From positions 310,001 through 374,000 of the forward strand of contig NZ_PISP01000001.1 of assembly GCF_002834295.1 (NCBI RefSeq): 64,000 nt of DNA. The letters are read 5' to 3'. Position 1 is the stretch's first letter; every line of letters begins with the position of its first letter. The translations under genes were made by a program, and so were the position numbers. Of the stretch, positions 30,129 through 35,223 are shown piece by piece. The notes beneath the pieces are model-generated. The model was not told the DNA's origin. It did no database searches and saw nothing but the letters and a program-made list of their open reading frames with translations. The stretch comes from Rhodohalobacter barkolensis. Its GTDB lineage: Bacteria; Bacteroidota; Rhodothermia; Balneolales; Balneolaceae.

Positions 30129-30304
30129 GGTAACGAATCTCAAAATTTTATGCTGCCTGTGTGATGATTCCTAAAGGTAATCAAATTTTGCTGTTTAGTA
30201 TAATAAATACAAATTAAGAGTAGATGCGTATCTTTTTTATAAATAAAAGTTTTGTACTATATCACAATTCAAACGAGCAGTATAACACTTCAGTATAAGT
30301 GAGA

Positions 30305-33300
30305 ATGAACAAAAACTATCCATCAGTTGCAGAATATCTGCATAAACAGATTGAAGAAAAATTTACAGTTAAGACGGCAGAGTTCAGAACGGAGTTCAGA
30401 AGTGAACTGCTTAACTGGTTTCAGACTACATATAAGGAGATTCTGAGCATCAAAAAAGATGATGAACTCAGAAATAAAAGAGTAGTAGACACTCTCAATA
30501 AAAATATCTCTGATCTGAAAAATGTTATTGAAAATTACGGTAAAAACCAGTGGTCCGATCATTGGAATACATTGATAAATGATCTGACAGAAGAGCTTCC
30601 CGAAACGGTAGTTGAGTATCAGTCTGAAGATCGCTTTGAAGCAAAGGAAGAAGATTCGTTTCGGCTCAAATCTTTGAAATCTCTAAAACGTGGTCTTCGC
30701 ATTGTTTCAGCTCCGTTTAAAAAAGATAAAAAAGGCTGGAAACAGGTTATACAACTCAGAAAAAGCATCAGGTTAAAGTTAACCGGGCTTTCAGGTTTGC
30801 CGGAAGATTTATTAGCCGAAGAATTTAAGGTTATGGCTGATGCACTGGCAAAATTATTGGAAAAAGAACCTGAGAAGAAAATTGAAAAAGAAGAGGGTGG
30901 AAATAGTTCAGCAGAGGGAGAAGGAAATAAAGATTCAAAACCGCCAAAGGCTAACGAGCAGAATGCCGGATTTAAATTTCAGGTTTTAGAAAAAATTGAA
31001 ACTCATCTGCAGGAGGCTATTTCCATTCTAAAAAATGTAGAACCGGAGGATTCCGTTTTACAGATAGTAATGGATGAATGTTACGATATAGCTGTGAAAA
31101 GCGGCACAGTAGAAGAGAACCGCAAACTTTTGGAGCCTGACTACTATGAGGCAAAACTGGCTTCAAAAAAAGTGACGTTGCAAAAATCACAAAAAGATTG
31201 GCTGATCTATCTGAAATCTCAGTACTCCGATTTTGCCATTCAGATTGAGATTGCAAGATTCGCATTTCTTGCAGATAACGCAAAAGGGGAGATTTTAAAT
31301 TTTACACACCGTTTTTTTCGCGATTATTGTTACCTGCCTCTTGAGAAAGGTGTCACCAAAATTAAAGAGATTGCCGGTAGACTGAAAGAACAGAAGTCGG
31401 AAAAACTCTCATCAAAATTGGTTGAAGAGTTGAGATCTGATATATGGGAAGAGCTTTCTGAAAAGCTAATGAATGAGATGACCGGTGATGAAAACCAGCG
31501 TCATATCATCAATCAGATCCAAAAAACAATTACCGATCTGCAGCTGGGTTTTTATAATTTTACCGATCAATTTACGCTAGCAGAGAAGCGTTCGATTGAG
31601 GGAAACAAACCCCAGGTGACCACGGACACGGTGAGTTGGAAGAAGCTGGCTACTCGATATGTTCAGGAAAATGCACTTCGCGACATGGATCCTGAAAAAA
31701 GAGAGTGGGAAACGTTTCTGAAAGAGATCATTTCTGAAACCGAAGAGGCCATTCAAATTGTGGATGTGAACCTGCTTACGGCAAAAGAGTCGGAAAAGGA
31801 CAAAGAGGAAGATCAGTCAGTTCTTGAGATAGCCATCAGTGGGGCTGAACGTGCCATAAACCAGCTTGAAGCGGCCATTAAAAAAGTTCGTGAACGTCAG
31901 AATTCATATGAAAACGTTGTAAAAGTTAAATTTCCCGGAGCAATTCAAACCCTTGCCGAAACGATGCTGGCAAGATCGTACACCGAACTTGAACTTCAGG
32001 ATAAAGCACTTCAGGTTAAGGCGAAAGCATACAGCTGGCAAGAAAGGGGAGAACGTATCTATTACAAGATACTTGAAAAAGGGGAATTACTTCGCCGATT
32101 CGCAGTTCTGAAGCTGAAGGAAGTAAGGAAATTTGCAGCAAAATATCTTGGGATTTCTGAAGGAGGGGCAGCGGTTAGTACTACAGAAAAAAGAAATCTT
32201 GCTGAATATCTGGCACAAGTTGATGTGCACCTCAATTTTCCTTTTGTCTATAAACGATTATTCAGCTCTGATTTCGATATCGATGATCGATTTTATACAC
32301 CTCCTGTTGGGTTATACACACTTTTTGAACAGTCTTATGAAGATTGGACTCTGAATATAGATACAAATTTCTTAGTAGTCGGGGAAAGAGGAAGTGGAAA
32401 AACCCTGGCGCTTAACGTTTTGAAACAGAAGTTTTTGAAAGATCAGAAAATTAATACTGTTCATTTCGATCAAACCATTTATACAGAAAAAGAACTCTTG
32501 AAATTGTTTTGTGATGCATTTGGGTTTGAGAATACTGAAAATAGGGATGAATTGATCCAAAAAATTAAGCGAAAGAAAAAGAGATCGATCTTAGTTGTTG
32601 AGGATATCCAAAATACATTTGTGAGGAATATTCATGGATTTGAAGCGATTGAGAGTTTCTGGGTAATTATGACGTCAACAAGGGATCAGCTCTTTTGGAT
32701 GGTTACCTGTTCTGCTTTTGCATGGAACTATTTCATTAAGGTTTTTAGTGCAGATCAATATTTCTCTCATACGGTACAAACAGATAAACTGGATCGCGAA
32801 GCAATTGAAAAATCCATTTTATCGCGGCATAAAGCAACCGGTTATGAATTGAAGTTTGAGGCTGGAGCTGCTACACAAAAAAGCCGGTCATATAGAAAAT
32901 TAATGTCCAACGATAAGGATATTCAAACCTATCTTCATGATCAGTACTTCAGTCGTTTGGATAAAATTGCAGAAGGAAACATGTCGATTGCCATGATCTT
33001 TTGGTTACAGTCGATTAAAGAATTTGACGATAAGTATGTAACTCAGCTTCCAACCGAAATTGCCGATGTAGATAAACTGGAAGTTCCTTCAAGGGAGGTG
33101 CTTTTTACGTTATCGGCTTTGGTTTTACATGAATTTCTCACTGAAGAGGAAGTTTCATTTGCACTGCATCAGGATTTATCAGACAGCCGTTTGATGCTTG
33201 CACGTCTGAAAAGTAAAGGAATTGTGCAAAATACTGAGCATGGGTACAATTTAAATCATTTGGTTTATCGTCAAATTGTTCGGTTACTCAAACGTAGAAA

Positions 33301-33313
33301 TATCATTCATTAG
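30305..33313 (+). CDS. Large coiled-coil P-loop ATPase of unknown function
   Basis: Family not recognised. 1002 residues, no signal peptide or membrane helix. Residues 1 to about 640 are charged and mostly helical, with an extremely Glu/Lys-rich linker near 195-220 (KEEGGNSSAEGEGNKDSKPP). An AAA/Orc-like NTPase module occupies about 670-900: Walker A LVVGERGSGKTLAL (near 688-701) and a Walker B strand RSILVVEDIQN (near 760). The C-terminal 85 residues look like a winged helix (LTEEEVSFALHQDLSDSRLMLARLKSKGIV). Start at the ATG at 30305; a GTG two codons upstream is possible. An MscS gene begins 11 bp after the stop with GGGAGGAG in the gap, so the pair is an operon; the ATPase may gate or assemble with the channel (inference). 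Confidence 0.85.
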   Translation: MNKNYPSVAEYLHKQIEEKFTVKTAEFRTEFRSELLNWFQTTYKEILSIKKDDELRNKRVVDTLNKNISDLKNVIENYGKNQWSDHWNTLINDLTEELPETVVEYQSEDRFEAKEEDSFRLKSLKSLKRGLRIVSAPFKKDKKGWKQVIQLRKSIRLKLTGLSGLPEDLLAEEFKVMADALAKLLEKEPEKKIEKEEGGNSSAEGEGNKDSKPPKANEQNAGFKFQVLEKIETHLQEAISILKNVEPEDSVLQIVMDECYDIAVKSGTVEENRKLLEPDYYEAKLASKKVTLQKSQKDWLIYLKSQYSDFAIQIEIARFAFLADNAKGEILNFTHRFFRDYCYLPLEKGVTKIKEIAGRLKEQKSEKLSSKLVEELRSDIWEELSEKLMNEMTGDENQRHIINQIQKTITDLQLGFYNFTDQFTLAEKRSIEGNKPQVTTDTVSWKKLATRYVQENALRDMDPEKREWETFLKEIISETEEAIQIVDVNLLTAKESEKDKEEDQSVLEIAISGAERAINQLEAAIKKVRERQNSYENVVKVKFPGAIQTLAETMLARSYTELELQDKALQVKAKAYSWQERGERIYYKILEKGELLRRFAVLKLKEVRKFAAKYLGISEGGAAVSTTEKRNLAEYLAQVDVHLNFPFVYKRLFSSDFDIDDRFYTPPVGLYTLFEQSYEDWTLNIDTNFLVVGERGSGKTLALNVLKQKFLKDQKINTVHFDQTIYTEKELLKLFCDAFGFENTENRDELIQKIKRKKKRSILVVEDIQNTFVRNIHGFEAIESFWVIMTSTRDQLFWMVTCSAFAWNYFIKVFSADQYFSHTVQTDKLDREAIEKSILSRHKATGYELKFEAGAATQKSRSYRKLMSNDKDIQTYLHDQYFSRLDKIAEGNMSIAMIFWLQSIKEFDDKYVTQLPTEIADVDKLEVPSREVLFTLSALVLHEFLTEEEVSFALHQDLSDSRLMLARLKSKGIVQNTEHGYNLNHLVYRQIVRLLKRRNIIH

Positions 33314-33324
33314 GGAGGAGAATC

Positions 33325-34368
33325 ATGAAACATTTCCATCATTTTAAGGCGCTTATTTTCTTCTCCTTATTTATGGGAGTCTCAGCACTGATCTTAACCG
33401 GTTCGGCTTTAGATACAGGTGCTCAATTCGAAGAAGTGAGCACAACTTTACCTCAGGCAACCGTGGAGACTCAAACTATATCAGGCGCAGAGCAGTCTGC
33501 ATCAACTCAAGCTGCCGGCCAAGCAGAAGAAACGGGAGAAGATGTAGCGGAGGAAGTTCAAAACGAAATCACCCAAATACGTGAGCTCATCTCGATCAGT
33601 AAGGTGATTTACACACTGATAATCCTGTTTCTGACCTATTTCATCAATAAGTATCTTACACTTATTCTGGATAATATGTCAGAAAAAGCTACAAATTACC
33701 GACTCTTTATTAAGCGCCTCGCTCCGATTAGTCGAATCGTAATATGGTCATTTGCCATATATATAATCATAGCAGGTATCATTTCCCCACCATTTGAGAC
33801 GGTCATCGCAATAGGGGCATCCGTGGGTATAGCTGTTGGTTTCGCATCTCAGGATATTTTAAAGAATATCTTTGGCGGAATTATCATTATTCTGGATCGT
33901 CCTTTTCAGGTGGGCGATAAAATTGAGGTGGGTGTACACTACGGAGAAGTAATTAATATCGGATTAAGATCATGCAGGGTGGTTACTCCGGACGATTCGA
34001 TAGTCTCAATACCAAATGCGGAATTGATGAACCATTCGGTATCAAATGCTAACTCCAGTGCGCTCGATTGTCAGGTTGTAGCAGAAATTTATCTGCCGGC
34101 CACAGTCGACATTCAACAGGTTAAAAAGATAGCTTATAAAGCAGTTTATGCCTCTTCGTACACTTTTTTGAATAAGCCTGTAGACATTATAGTACTCAAT
34201 GAAGTAGAGAACAGATATTTTGTTTATAAACTACGTGTTAAAGCTTATGTAGTAGATATTCGGTATGAATTTTTCTTTAAAAGCGATTTAACGGAAATGA
34301 TTGTAGCGGAATGTAATCGGTTGGGAATGGTACCATTAACTATACCATCAGAGAAGGAGAGTAACTAA
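33325..34368 (+). CDS. Small-conductance mechanosensitive channel (MscS family)
   Basis: 347 residues. Signal-like hydrophobic N-terminus (10-32), a Glu/Thr/Ala-rich periplasmic stretch, then three membrane helices: about 90-112, 130-152, and the pore helix 155-185. The pore region carries ASVGIAVGFASQDILKN and IFGGIIIILDRPFQVGDKI, the MscS hallmark, followed by the beta domain and the C-terminal vestibule. It releases solutes on hypo-osmotic shock or serves as an ion channel under other gating. Strong ribosome binding site GGGAGGAG. It is tightly coupled to the P-loop ATPase gene, an unusual partner for MscS. Confidence 0.95.
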   Translation: MKHFHHFKALIFFSLFMGVSALILTGSALDTGAQFEEVSTTLPQATVETQTISGAEQSASTQAAGQAEETGEDVAEEVQNEITQIRELISISKVIYTLIILFLTYFINKYLTLILDNMSEKATNYRLFIKRLAPISRIVIWSFAIYIIIAGIISPPFETVIAIGASVGIAVGFASQDILKNIFGGIIIILDRPFQVGDKIEVGVHYGEVINIGLRSCRVVTPDDSIVSIPNAELMNHSVSNANSSALDCQVVAEIYLPATVDIQQVKKIAYKAVYASSYTFLNKPVDIIVLNEVENRYFVYKLRVKAYVVDIRYEFFFKSDLTEMIVAECNRLGMVPLTIPSEKESN

Positions 34369-34369
34369 A

Positions 34370-34780
34370 TTACATTTTGCTCTCTACTTCACCGGGATTC
34401 CAGGCGTACATTCCCTCACCAAAGCAGGAACCATTTCTAATGGCAATTTGAGGTTCAGTAGCAACATCAGCCGTTGAAAATCCTCCGGATTCCTCATTTC
34501 TTGCAGCATCAAGTTCGTTATATTTTTCAACAAGATTTTCCAATTTTTCCTGGTCTGTATATTCCTTGGAGTAGACTAGAAATCCCCAAGGACCGCCTGC
34601 AGGTTTGGAGCCAATGGGCATCAAGGCACATTGATCGATGGATTCGGCTTCAGCATTTCCTATCAATTGATCAATCTCTTTTGCAATCTCTTCAATGGAT
34701 TTTTCATTTTCACCGGCCGCACAGGAAAACAGCAGCAAACTGCTGCTAAATATAAAAAGTGTAAGTGTAGAGAGGTCCAT
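34370..34780 (-). CDS. Hypothetical lipoprotein, paralogue of the upstream gene
   Basis: 136 residues with lipobox Cys20 (LLLFSC). Shares with its upstream neighbour the stretches PIGSKPAGGPWGFLVYS, VEKYNELDAAR, VATEP and YAWNPG, so they are tandem duplicates. Only two mature cysteines remain (in DQCALMPIG and NGSCFG); the pair present in the neighbour (KPC, STCDYA) is Ala here (KPA, STADVA). Family unknown; probably a small disulfide-stabilised envelope protein. Stop codon is 1 bp from the MscS stop (convergent). Confidence 0.85.
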   Translation of the reverse strand: MDLSTLTLFIFSSSLLLFSCAAGENEKSIEEIAKEIDQLIGNAEAESIDQCALMPIGSKPAGGPWGFLVYSKEYTDQEKLENLVEKYNELDAARNEESGGFSTADVATEPQIAIRNGSCFGEGMYAWNPGEVESKM

Positions 34781-34782
34781 AA

Positions 34783-35223
34783 TTAATTGTTGATGTTGTT
34801 TCGTTCAAGAATGTCTCCTGGATTCCAGGCGTATCCATTTCCATGACAGCTTCCGCTCTCGAGTGAGAGGGTGGGTTCTGTTGCATAATCACAGGTTGAT
34901 CCGTAGCCTTCCTCTTTCATACGGATCTCATCCAGTTCGTTATATCTGTCTACAAGTTGTTTGAGGTTTTGTGCATCACTAACCTCTTCTGAGTAGACAA
35001 GATATCCCCAGGGACCGCCACATGGTTTTGCACCGATTGGTATTACCTGGCAGCTACTTAAATTTTCTGCTTGTGCATCTCCGACTTCCATATCGATAAG
35101 GGTCGCAATTTCTTCAATGGTGAGTTCTTCAAAATTATCTGTAGAAATTTCTTCACAAGATGCTGTAAGAATTAAGATTAATAAAAATGCAGAATAGAAA
35201 AGTAAGTTGTAAAGATATTTCAT
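34783..35223 (-). CDS. Hypothetical lipoprotein with four conserved cysteines
   Basis: 146 residues, lipobox Cys23 (ILTASC). Mature part has Cys in SSCQVIPIG, AKPCGGPWG, GSTCDYATEP and SGSCHGNG, likely two disulfides. It precedes its paralogue by 2 bp, so both are made from one mRNA. No known domain recognised. It may bind an inhibitor target or glycan, but there is no direct evidence. A 12-bp palindrome lies about 32 bp upstream of its start. Confidence 0.85.
   Translation of the reverse strand: MKYLYNLLFYSAFLLILILTASCEEISTDNFEELTIEEIATLIDMEVGDAQAENLSSCQVIPIGAKPCGGPWGYLVYSEEVSDAQNLKQLVDRYNELDEIRMKEEGYGSTCDYATEPTLSLESGSCHGNGYAWNPGDILERNNINN

Follow-up and report, generated by a model that had tools for sequence, protein, structure and literature searches.

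Within a 64,000-nucleotide window of the Rhodohalobacter barkolensis genome (contig NZ_PISP01000001.1, positions 310,001 to 374,000 of the forward strand), we analyzed a two-gene locus in which a large P-loop protein is encoded directly ahead of an MscS-family channel. The first gene (30305..33313, +), identified by its open reading frame (ORF), a Pfam AAA_22 match and >100 relatives, encodes a 1002-aa ORC/Cdc6-like AAA+ protein with STAND-like traits, hereafter the ATPase; its ORF starts at an ATG, with an alternative GTG start at 30299, and ends at a TAG stop (33311-33313). After a gap of 11 bp, which holds a GGAGGAG ribosome binding site (33314..33320, +) recognized from the sequence 4 nt ahead of the next ATG, follows a 347-aa MscS-family channel gene (33325..34368, +) that its ORF, Pfam matches and tree position place in an ATPase-linked subfamily termed class I. 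The channel protein has four hydrophobic segments, the first being a signal-like N-terminus. Its residues 135-312, covering the pore helix TM3 and then the beta-domain, are alignable to EcMscS, and the beta-domain itself (PF00924, aa 177-243, 33853..34053, +) is matched in Pfam at E 4e-20 (72.1 bits, cut-off 20.2); the nearest solved structures are MSL1 6vxm and EcMscS 2oau.

The ATPase, for which no transmembrane (TM) segments were predicted, combines a helical N-terminal region (aa 1-615, 30305..32149, +), delimited by structure models and homology, with an AAA+ NTPase domain (aa 643-920, 32231..33064, +) and a C-terminal winged helix (aa 926-1002, 33080..33310, +) that is seen in the DSSP assignment of the AlphaFold model (mean pLDDT 81) and is covered by the ORC alignments. 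Pfam AAA_22 matched aa 689-789 (E 9.6e-7, 29.6 bits, cut-off 27). The Walker A motif is GERGSGKT (aa 693-700, 32381..32404, +, from sequence and alignment) and the Walker B motif reads ILVVED (aa 762-767, 32588..32605, +), in the order ED and not DE, while R774 and R841 are conserved in the family alignment. Residues 642-1000 match an ORC/Cdc6-type AAA+ module with its winged helix (1w5t_C, Z 14.9, 322 residues aligned, rmsd 6.0) and TnsC (7mbw_A, Z 14.6), with Avs4, Apaf-1 and Roq1 among the lower-ranked Foldseek matches. Residues 1-615 are almost wholly helical, with an 84-residue helix at 278-361 and a beta hairpin at 423-443, and the region modeled alone from 50 sequences reached pLDDT 85. 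Foldseek with the helical domain alone returned no match at E < 0.001 (best E 0.24), and the structures that it matched, at middling Z, were pore toxins, dynamin stalks and helical bundles of a generic kind; the bacterial dynamin 5owv_C, at Z 10.1, ranks level with unrelated helical bundles. Models in Pfam, NCBIfam and PADLOC reach no part of the ATPase other than its P-loop region, a PDB sequence search with the protein alone gave no match, and a PDB search with the profile of its core matched mainly short P-loop stretches.

A sequence-only reading of this DNA had singled out the P-loop gene and the MscS gene, 11 bp apart and the second with a strong ribosome binding site, as a pair; the pair is real, and because it is conserved over many phyla, chance can be excluded as its origin. 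Rarity of homologues beside MscS, which the same reading had named among the observations that would refute it, was clearly not what we found: an MscS gene adjoins the ATPase on the same strand in 98 of 106 distinct ATPase loci (79 downstream, 19 upstream). The eight loci without an intact adjacent MscS comprise five at a contig edge (L047, L063, L101, L112, L144), one with a cut MscS gene (L110), one start-codon miscall (L125) and a single true exception (L109). All 33 of 33 further search matches, which overlap partly with the earlier loci, also had an adjacent MscS. The pair is present in Balneolota, Bacteroidota, KSB1, Calditrichota, Gemmatimonadota, Acidobacteriota and Pseudomonadota, with the ATPase first in most and MscS first in Rhodothermales and one proteobacterial metagenome-assembled genome (MAG), frequently with the two genes overlapping by 4 bp. 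The cultured alphaproteobacterium Novosphingobium pentaromativorans US6-1 carries the same pair with the genes 2 bp apart, annotated by NCBI as 'AAA family ATPase' (WP_007014233.1, 24% identical to the core of the window ATPase) and 'mechanosensitive ion channel family protein' (WP_039857743.1). Variants of the locus were also seen: a class I ATPase followed by three MscS-family genes in one stretch (L153 779-4917); an MscS gene split into two overlapping ORFs beside an ATPase with an altered C-terminus, attributable to frameshifts or assembly errors (L036 10460-11553, genome G037); and some Rhodothermales MscS partners that are lengthened at the N-terminus by several hundred residues to which Pfam assigns nothing (L135 2461-4443, L139 2134-4158).

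Occurrence across genomes follows the same pattern. Among 244 genomes of the class, in a count that omits two weak matches at E ~5e-4, both families were found in 98, the ATPase alone in three, MscS alone in two and neither in 141 (Fisher p 6e-62, phylogeny ignored), and one of the three ATPase-only and one of the two MscS-only cases lie at a contig end. The co-occurrence holds where the gene order is reversed as well. Genomes carrying the pair also hold several other MscS paralogues that have no such partner, and in a quick tree the ATPase-linked class I channels form one clade separate from eleven unlinked paralogues (SH-aLRT 95). Tree distances of ATPase and MscS correlate (Mantel r 0.81 for class I and 0.85 for class II), and the two trees share 16 of 39 splits, compared with 0.2 in shuffles. 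We regard a functional partnership between the ATPase and its MscS neighbor as close to certain.

Throughout Balneolales the pair sits mostly at one site, divergent from two genes that we take, from reading their sequences, to encode an N-acetylmuramoyl-L-alanine amidase and a uridine kinase; in genome G016 it lies at a different location. Within the genus the ATPase occurs in eight of 28 genomes; exactly seven of these have its MscS counterpart as well (identity at least 64%), and in the remaining one the ATPase is followed by a contig end. In pair-less genomes of the genus the amidase is retained, and the SDR gene or other neighbors from the window follow it directly (L200, L202, L205-L207, L209, L210). 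The pair is therefore an old chromosomal locus that has been cleanly lost in part of the genus. Directly 3' of the pair in the window, and convergent to it, lie two similar small genes in tandem (34370-35223, -) encoding secreted or lipoprotein-like products of 136 and 146 aa, which are retained in syntenic relatives. Several Balneolaceae carry a gene of ~535-550 aa after MscS on the same strand (L037, L042, L044, L064-L071); the one that we tested (L037 11611-13257) encodes an M49 (dipeptidyl-peptidase III) protein, and this third gene is not conserved outside Balneolaceae.

Catalytic residues of the nucleotide site are lost in many relatives. The window ATPase, with ED in place of DE, lacks the Walker B pattern with a catalytic Glu (hhhhDE), and across the classes Asn or Gly usually follows the Walker B acid (EN, EG), only Acidobacteriota and Alcanivorax showing EE or DE. 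All Rhodothermales members in which the region is covered, and a set of Bacteroidota (GEKGSG[ATSVI]), have no Walker A lysine, and the pairing with MscS persists in these lineages. Since catalytic residues are lost while the pair endures, a power-stroke motor is unlikely as the general mechanism, and switching by nucleotide, or a scaffold role left after switching was lost, would more likely fit. 'ATPase' is likewise uncertain as an activity label for the family, because many relatives that keep the pairing have lost these residues. In Balneola and its relatives the ATPase is short (~300-450 aa), consisting of the AAA+ domain and winged helix only, and MscS is kept beside it; the smallest unit seen is thus an AAA+ domain with its winged helix plus an MscS channel.

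Searching the phylum with the ATPase core profile revealed relatives in other Bacteroidota, in two classes, where the whole module, helical domain included, sits behind a transporter with 10-14 predicted TM segments. The helical region of the window ATPase corresponds by homology to the stretch that links the transporter to the AAA+ domain in these fusions (E 6e-25 to 3e-34 for class II, 2e-9 for class III, locus L151). Class II proteins (~1500 aa) join a CPA-type PF00999 exchanger to the module and are followed by their own MscS subfamily, TrkH and TrkA; the PF00999 match (E 3.7e-21) was obtained with L146, and alignment served to assign L148 and L149, whose N-termini have no Pfam match. Upstream of the class II fusion lies a membrane protein of 414-422 aa (L146 10380-11624, with homologues in L145, L147 and L148), and its 414-aa representative has no Pfam or PDB match but aligns to the CPA exchanger domain with an hhalign probability of 96.8%. 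Class III proteins (~1700 aa) join an AA_permease/SLC12 domain, whose nearest solved structure is KCC4 (E 1.1e-72), to the module, and the gene after them encodes a short MscS from a third subfamily. At every further locus that we checked, the adjacent MscS belongs to the matching subfamily. Because the three transport partners each have MscS or K+ uptake genes nearby, ion or osmotic homeostasis is likely the most economical role for the module.

We therefore consider it probable that the system works in ion or osmotic control. How that control might be exerted is less secure, and with moderate confidence we propose a two-gene osmotic or ion-homeostasis system in which the ATPase serves as the dedicated regulatory subunit of an MscS efflux channel. 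In this proposal the large cytosolic protein would bind the MscS heptamer at its cytosolic portion, and an internal cue that it senses (nucleotide state, ionic strength, crowding or a messenger) would change channel opening, such that release of K+ and solutes would be governed by more than membrane tension. In the fused relatives the module makes up the cytosolic tail, attached to a CPA-type antiporter or an SLC12 cotransporter, and could coordinate that transporter with the adjacent MscS. In either form it would work as a nucleotide-dependent switch or scaffold and not as a motor. The sequence-only reading had already suggested that the ATPase may gate the channel, and we somewhat favor direct regulation of channel opening by a bound module. 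More tentatively, an ORC/STAND-type NTP-binding module, a catalytically dead pseudo-ATPase in many lineages, could act from the cytosol as the shared controller of MscS channels, CPA antiporters and SLC12 (KCC/NKCC-like) transporters and so represent a new class of cell-volume control in bacteria.

Several observations weigh against a regulatory subunit of the channel. Agreement between the trees of adjacent genes is expected from joint inheritance alone, and the pair, being absent from 20 of the 28 genomes of the genus, is dispensable. The true exception noted above, in Gemmatimonadetes MAG J002 (L109 489-5123), is a transporter-fused relative (matching the class II exchanger at probability 97.4) followed by gyrA, with no MscS beside it; the same MAG also carries an ordinary pair (L090). 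The winged helix, finally, is slightly basic (pI 8.5) and so might bind DNA. A transcriptional regulator that binds DNA through this domain and controls the adjacent MscS (and transporter) genes would also be in keeping with the nearest folds, given that ORC, TnsC and RuvB bind DNA. However, covalent fusion to transporters in two classes would tether such a DNA-binding protein to the membrane, the flipped gene order with 4-bp overlaps is the pattern of cotranscribed subunits, and winged helices of the ORC type make packing contacts with protein as well, all of which makes a regulator of this kind quite unlikely. The AAA+ fold and the strict pairing could also be read as those of an assembly or turnover factor, a chaperone that remodels or inserts the MscS heptamer and the transporters, and AAA_22 relatives such as ExeA/GspA do assemble membrane complexes. 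Yet whole lineages that keep the pair have lost the hydrolysis residues, a permanent fusion to a transporter suits a regulator better, and the other MscS paralogues of the same genomes manage without a partner; we judge a chaperone unlikely.

The sequence-only reading had placed the pair in an osmotic or stress response, possibly against phage, and these two halves fared differently: the osmotic one is strengthened by the CPA and SLC12 fusions and by TrkH/TrkA in the operon, while the phage one finds no backing. An anti-phage or abortive system, in which a STAND-like sensor opens MscS as a leak effector upon infection, would draw on the STAND-like traits of the ATPase, on the presence of Avs4 among its Foldseek matches and on the fact that pores are common defense effectors. 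Against it stand the fixed housekeeping position beside the amidase and uridine kinase in the order, the clean empty sites, slow vertical divergence and the transporter fusions. PADLOC-DB 2.0.0 contained no defense model that matched the ATPase over its length, giving weak P-loop-level matches only, and none of 43 pattern matches in viral contigs was a relative. With PADLOC, phage and plasmid searches and genomic setting yielding nothing, we rejected the defense reading, which we consider very improbable. The possibility that the genes are neighbors by chance or history, with no functional link, gains something from the conserved position within Balneolales, where adjacency is inherited, but adjacency holds over many phyla, in flipped order and across three ATPase classes and three MscS subfamilies, and the strict co-occurrence of the two families counts against it as well; with ~7 MscS genes in ~3,000, we estimate random adjacency at ~0.5% per locus, and the probability of this explanation is negligible.

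A dedicated regulatory subunit has its closest working analogue in TrkA/KtrA, the cytosolic nucleotide-binding subunit of the osmotic channel TrkH/KtrB, which is likewise encoded beside an osmotic ion channel and dedicated to it. TrkA/KtrA, however, forms an RCK (Rossmann) ring without a P-loop; neither TrkA_N nor TrkA_C in Pfam matched the window ATPase, and true TrkA shares an operon with the class II fusions. The window channel keeps the beta-domain and TM3 of MscS, YnaI and MSL1, but described members of that family are tension- or ligand-gated without an NTPase partner, and its subfamily is a separate clade. With ORC/Cdc6 and TnsC the ATPase shares the fold of aa 642-1000 including the winged helix (Z ~14-15), whereas it adds a 615-aa helical N-domain, lacks the catalytic Glu and belongs to a family that partners channels and transporters and not replication or transposition. 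The family resembles STAND proteins (NACHT, Avs, Apaf-1) in that the Walker B acid is followed by a residue that is small or polar, in the GN motif, the winged helix after the NTPase domain and, in many members, an Arg after strand 4; the window protein differs in ending at the winged helix without C-terminal sensor repeats and in having its helical domain at the N-terminus, and the Pfam models nSTAND5, iSTAND, nSTAND1 and nSTAND3 all scored under cut-off. The class III N-terminus resembles KCC4 and that of class II PF00999, linking the family to SLC12 (KCC, NKCC) and CPA transporters, although here these domains are joined to an NTPase module beside MscS and the window protein has no transporter domain. 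The components (MscS, AAA+, CPA, SLC12) are known, while none of the libraries that we used has a name for the system, for the family or for the fusions; no description of the ATPase-MscS pair was found in the open-license PMC literature, a search that did not extend to subscription papers and preprints.

MscS is the textbook tension-gated channel, and that one of its subfamilies nearly always comes with an NTPase-fold partner makes it probable that some MscS channels are controlled from within the cell. If the proposed regulation is correct, opening of these channels would follow the internal state of the cell besides membrane tension. The shared module on bacterial SLC12 and CPA transporters ties bacterial osmoregulation to the family that sets animal cell volume, and the two- and three-gene systems reside in cultured, directly testable bacteria, including Novosphingobium, Aquimarina, Polaribacter and Rhodohalobacter.

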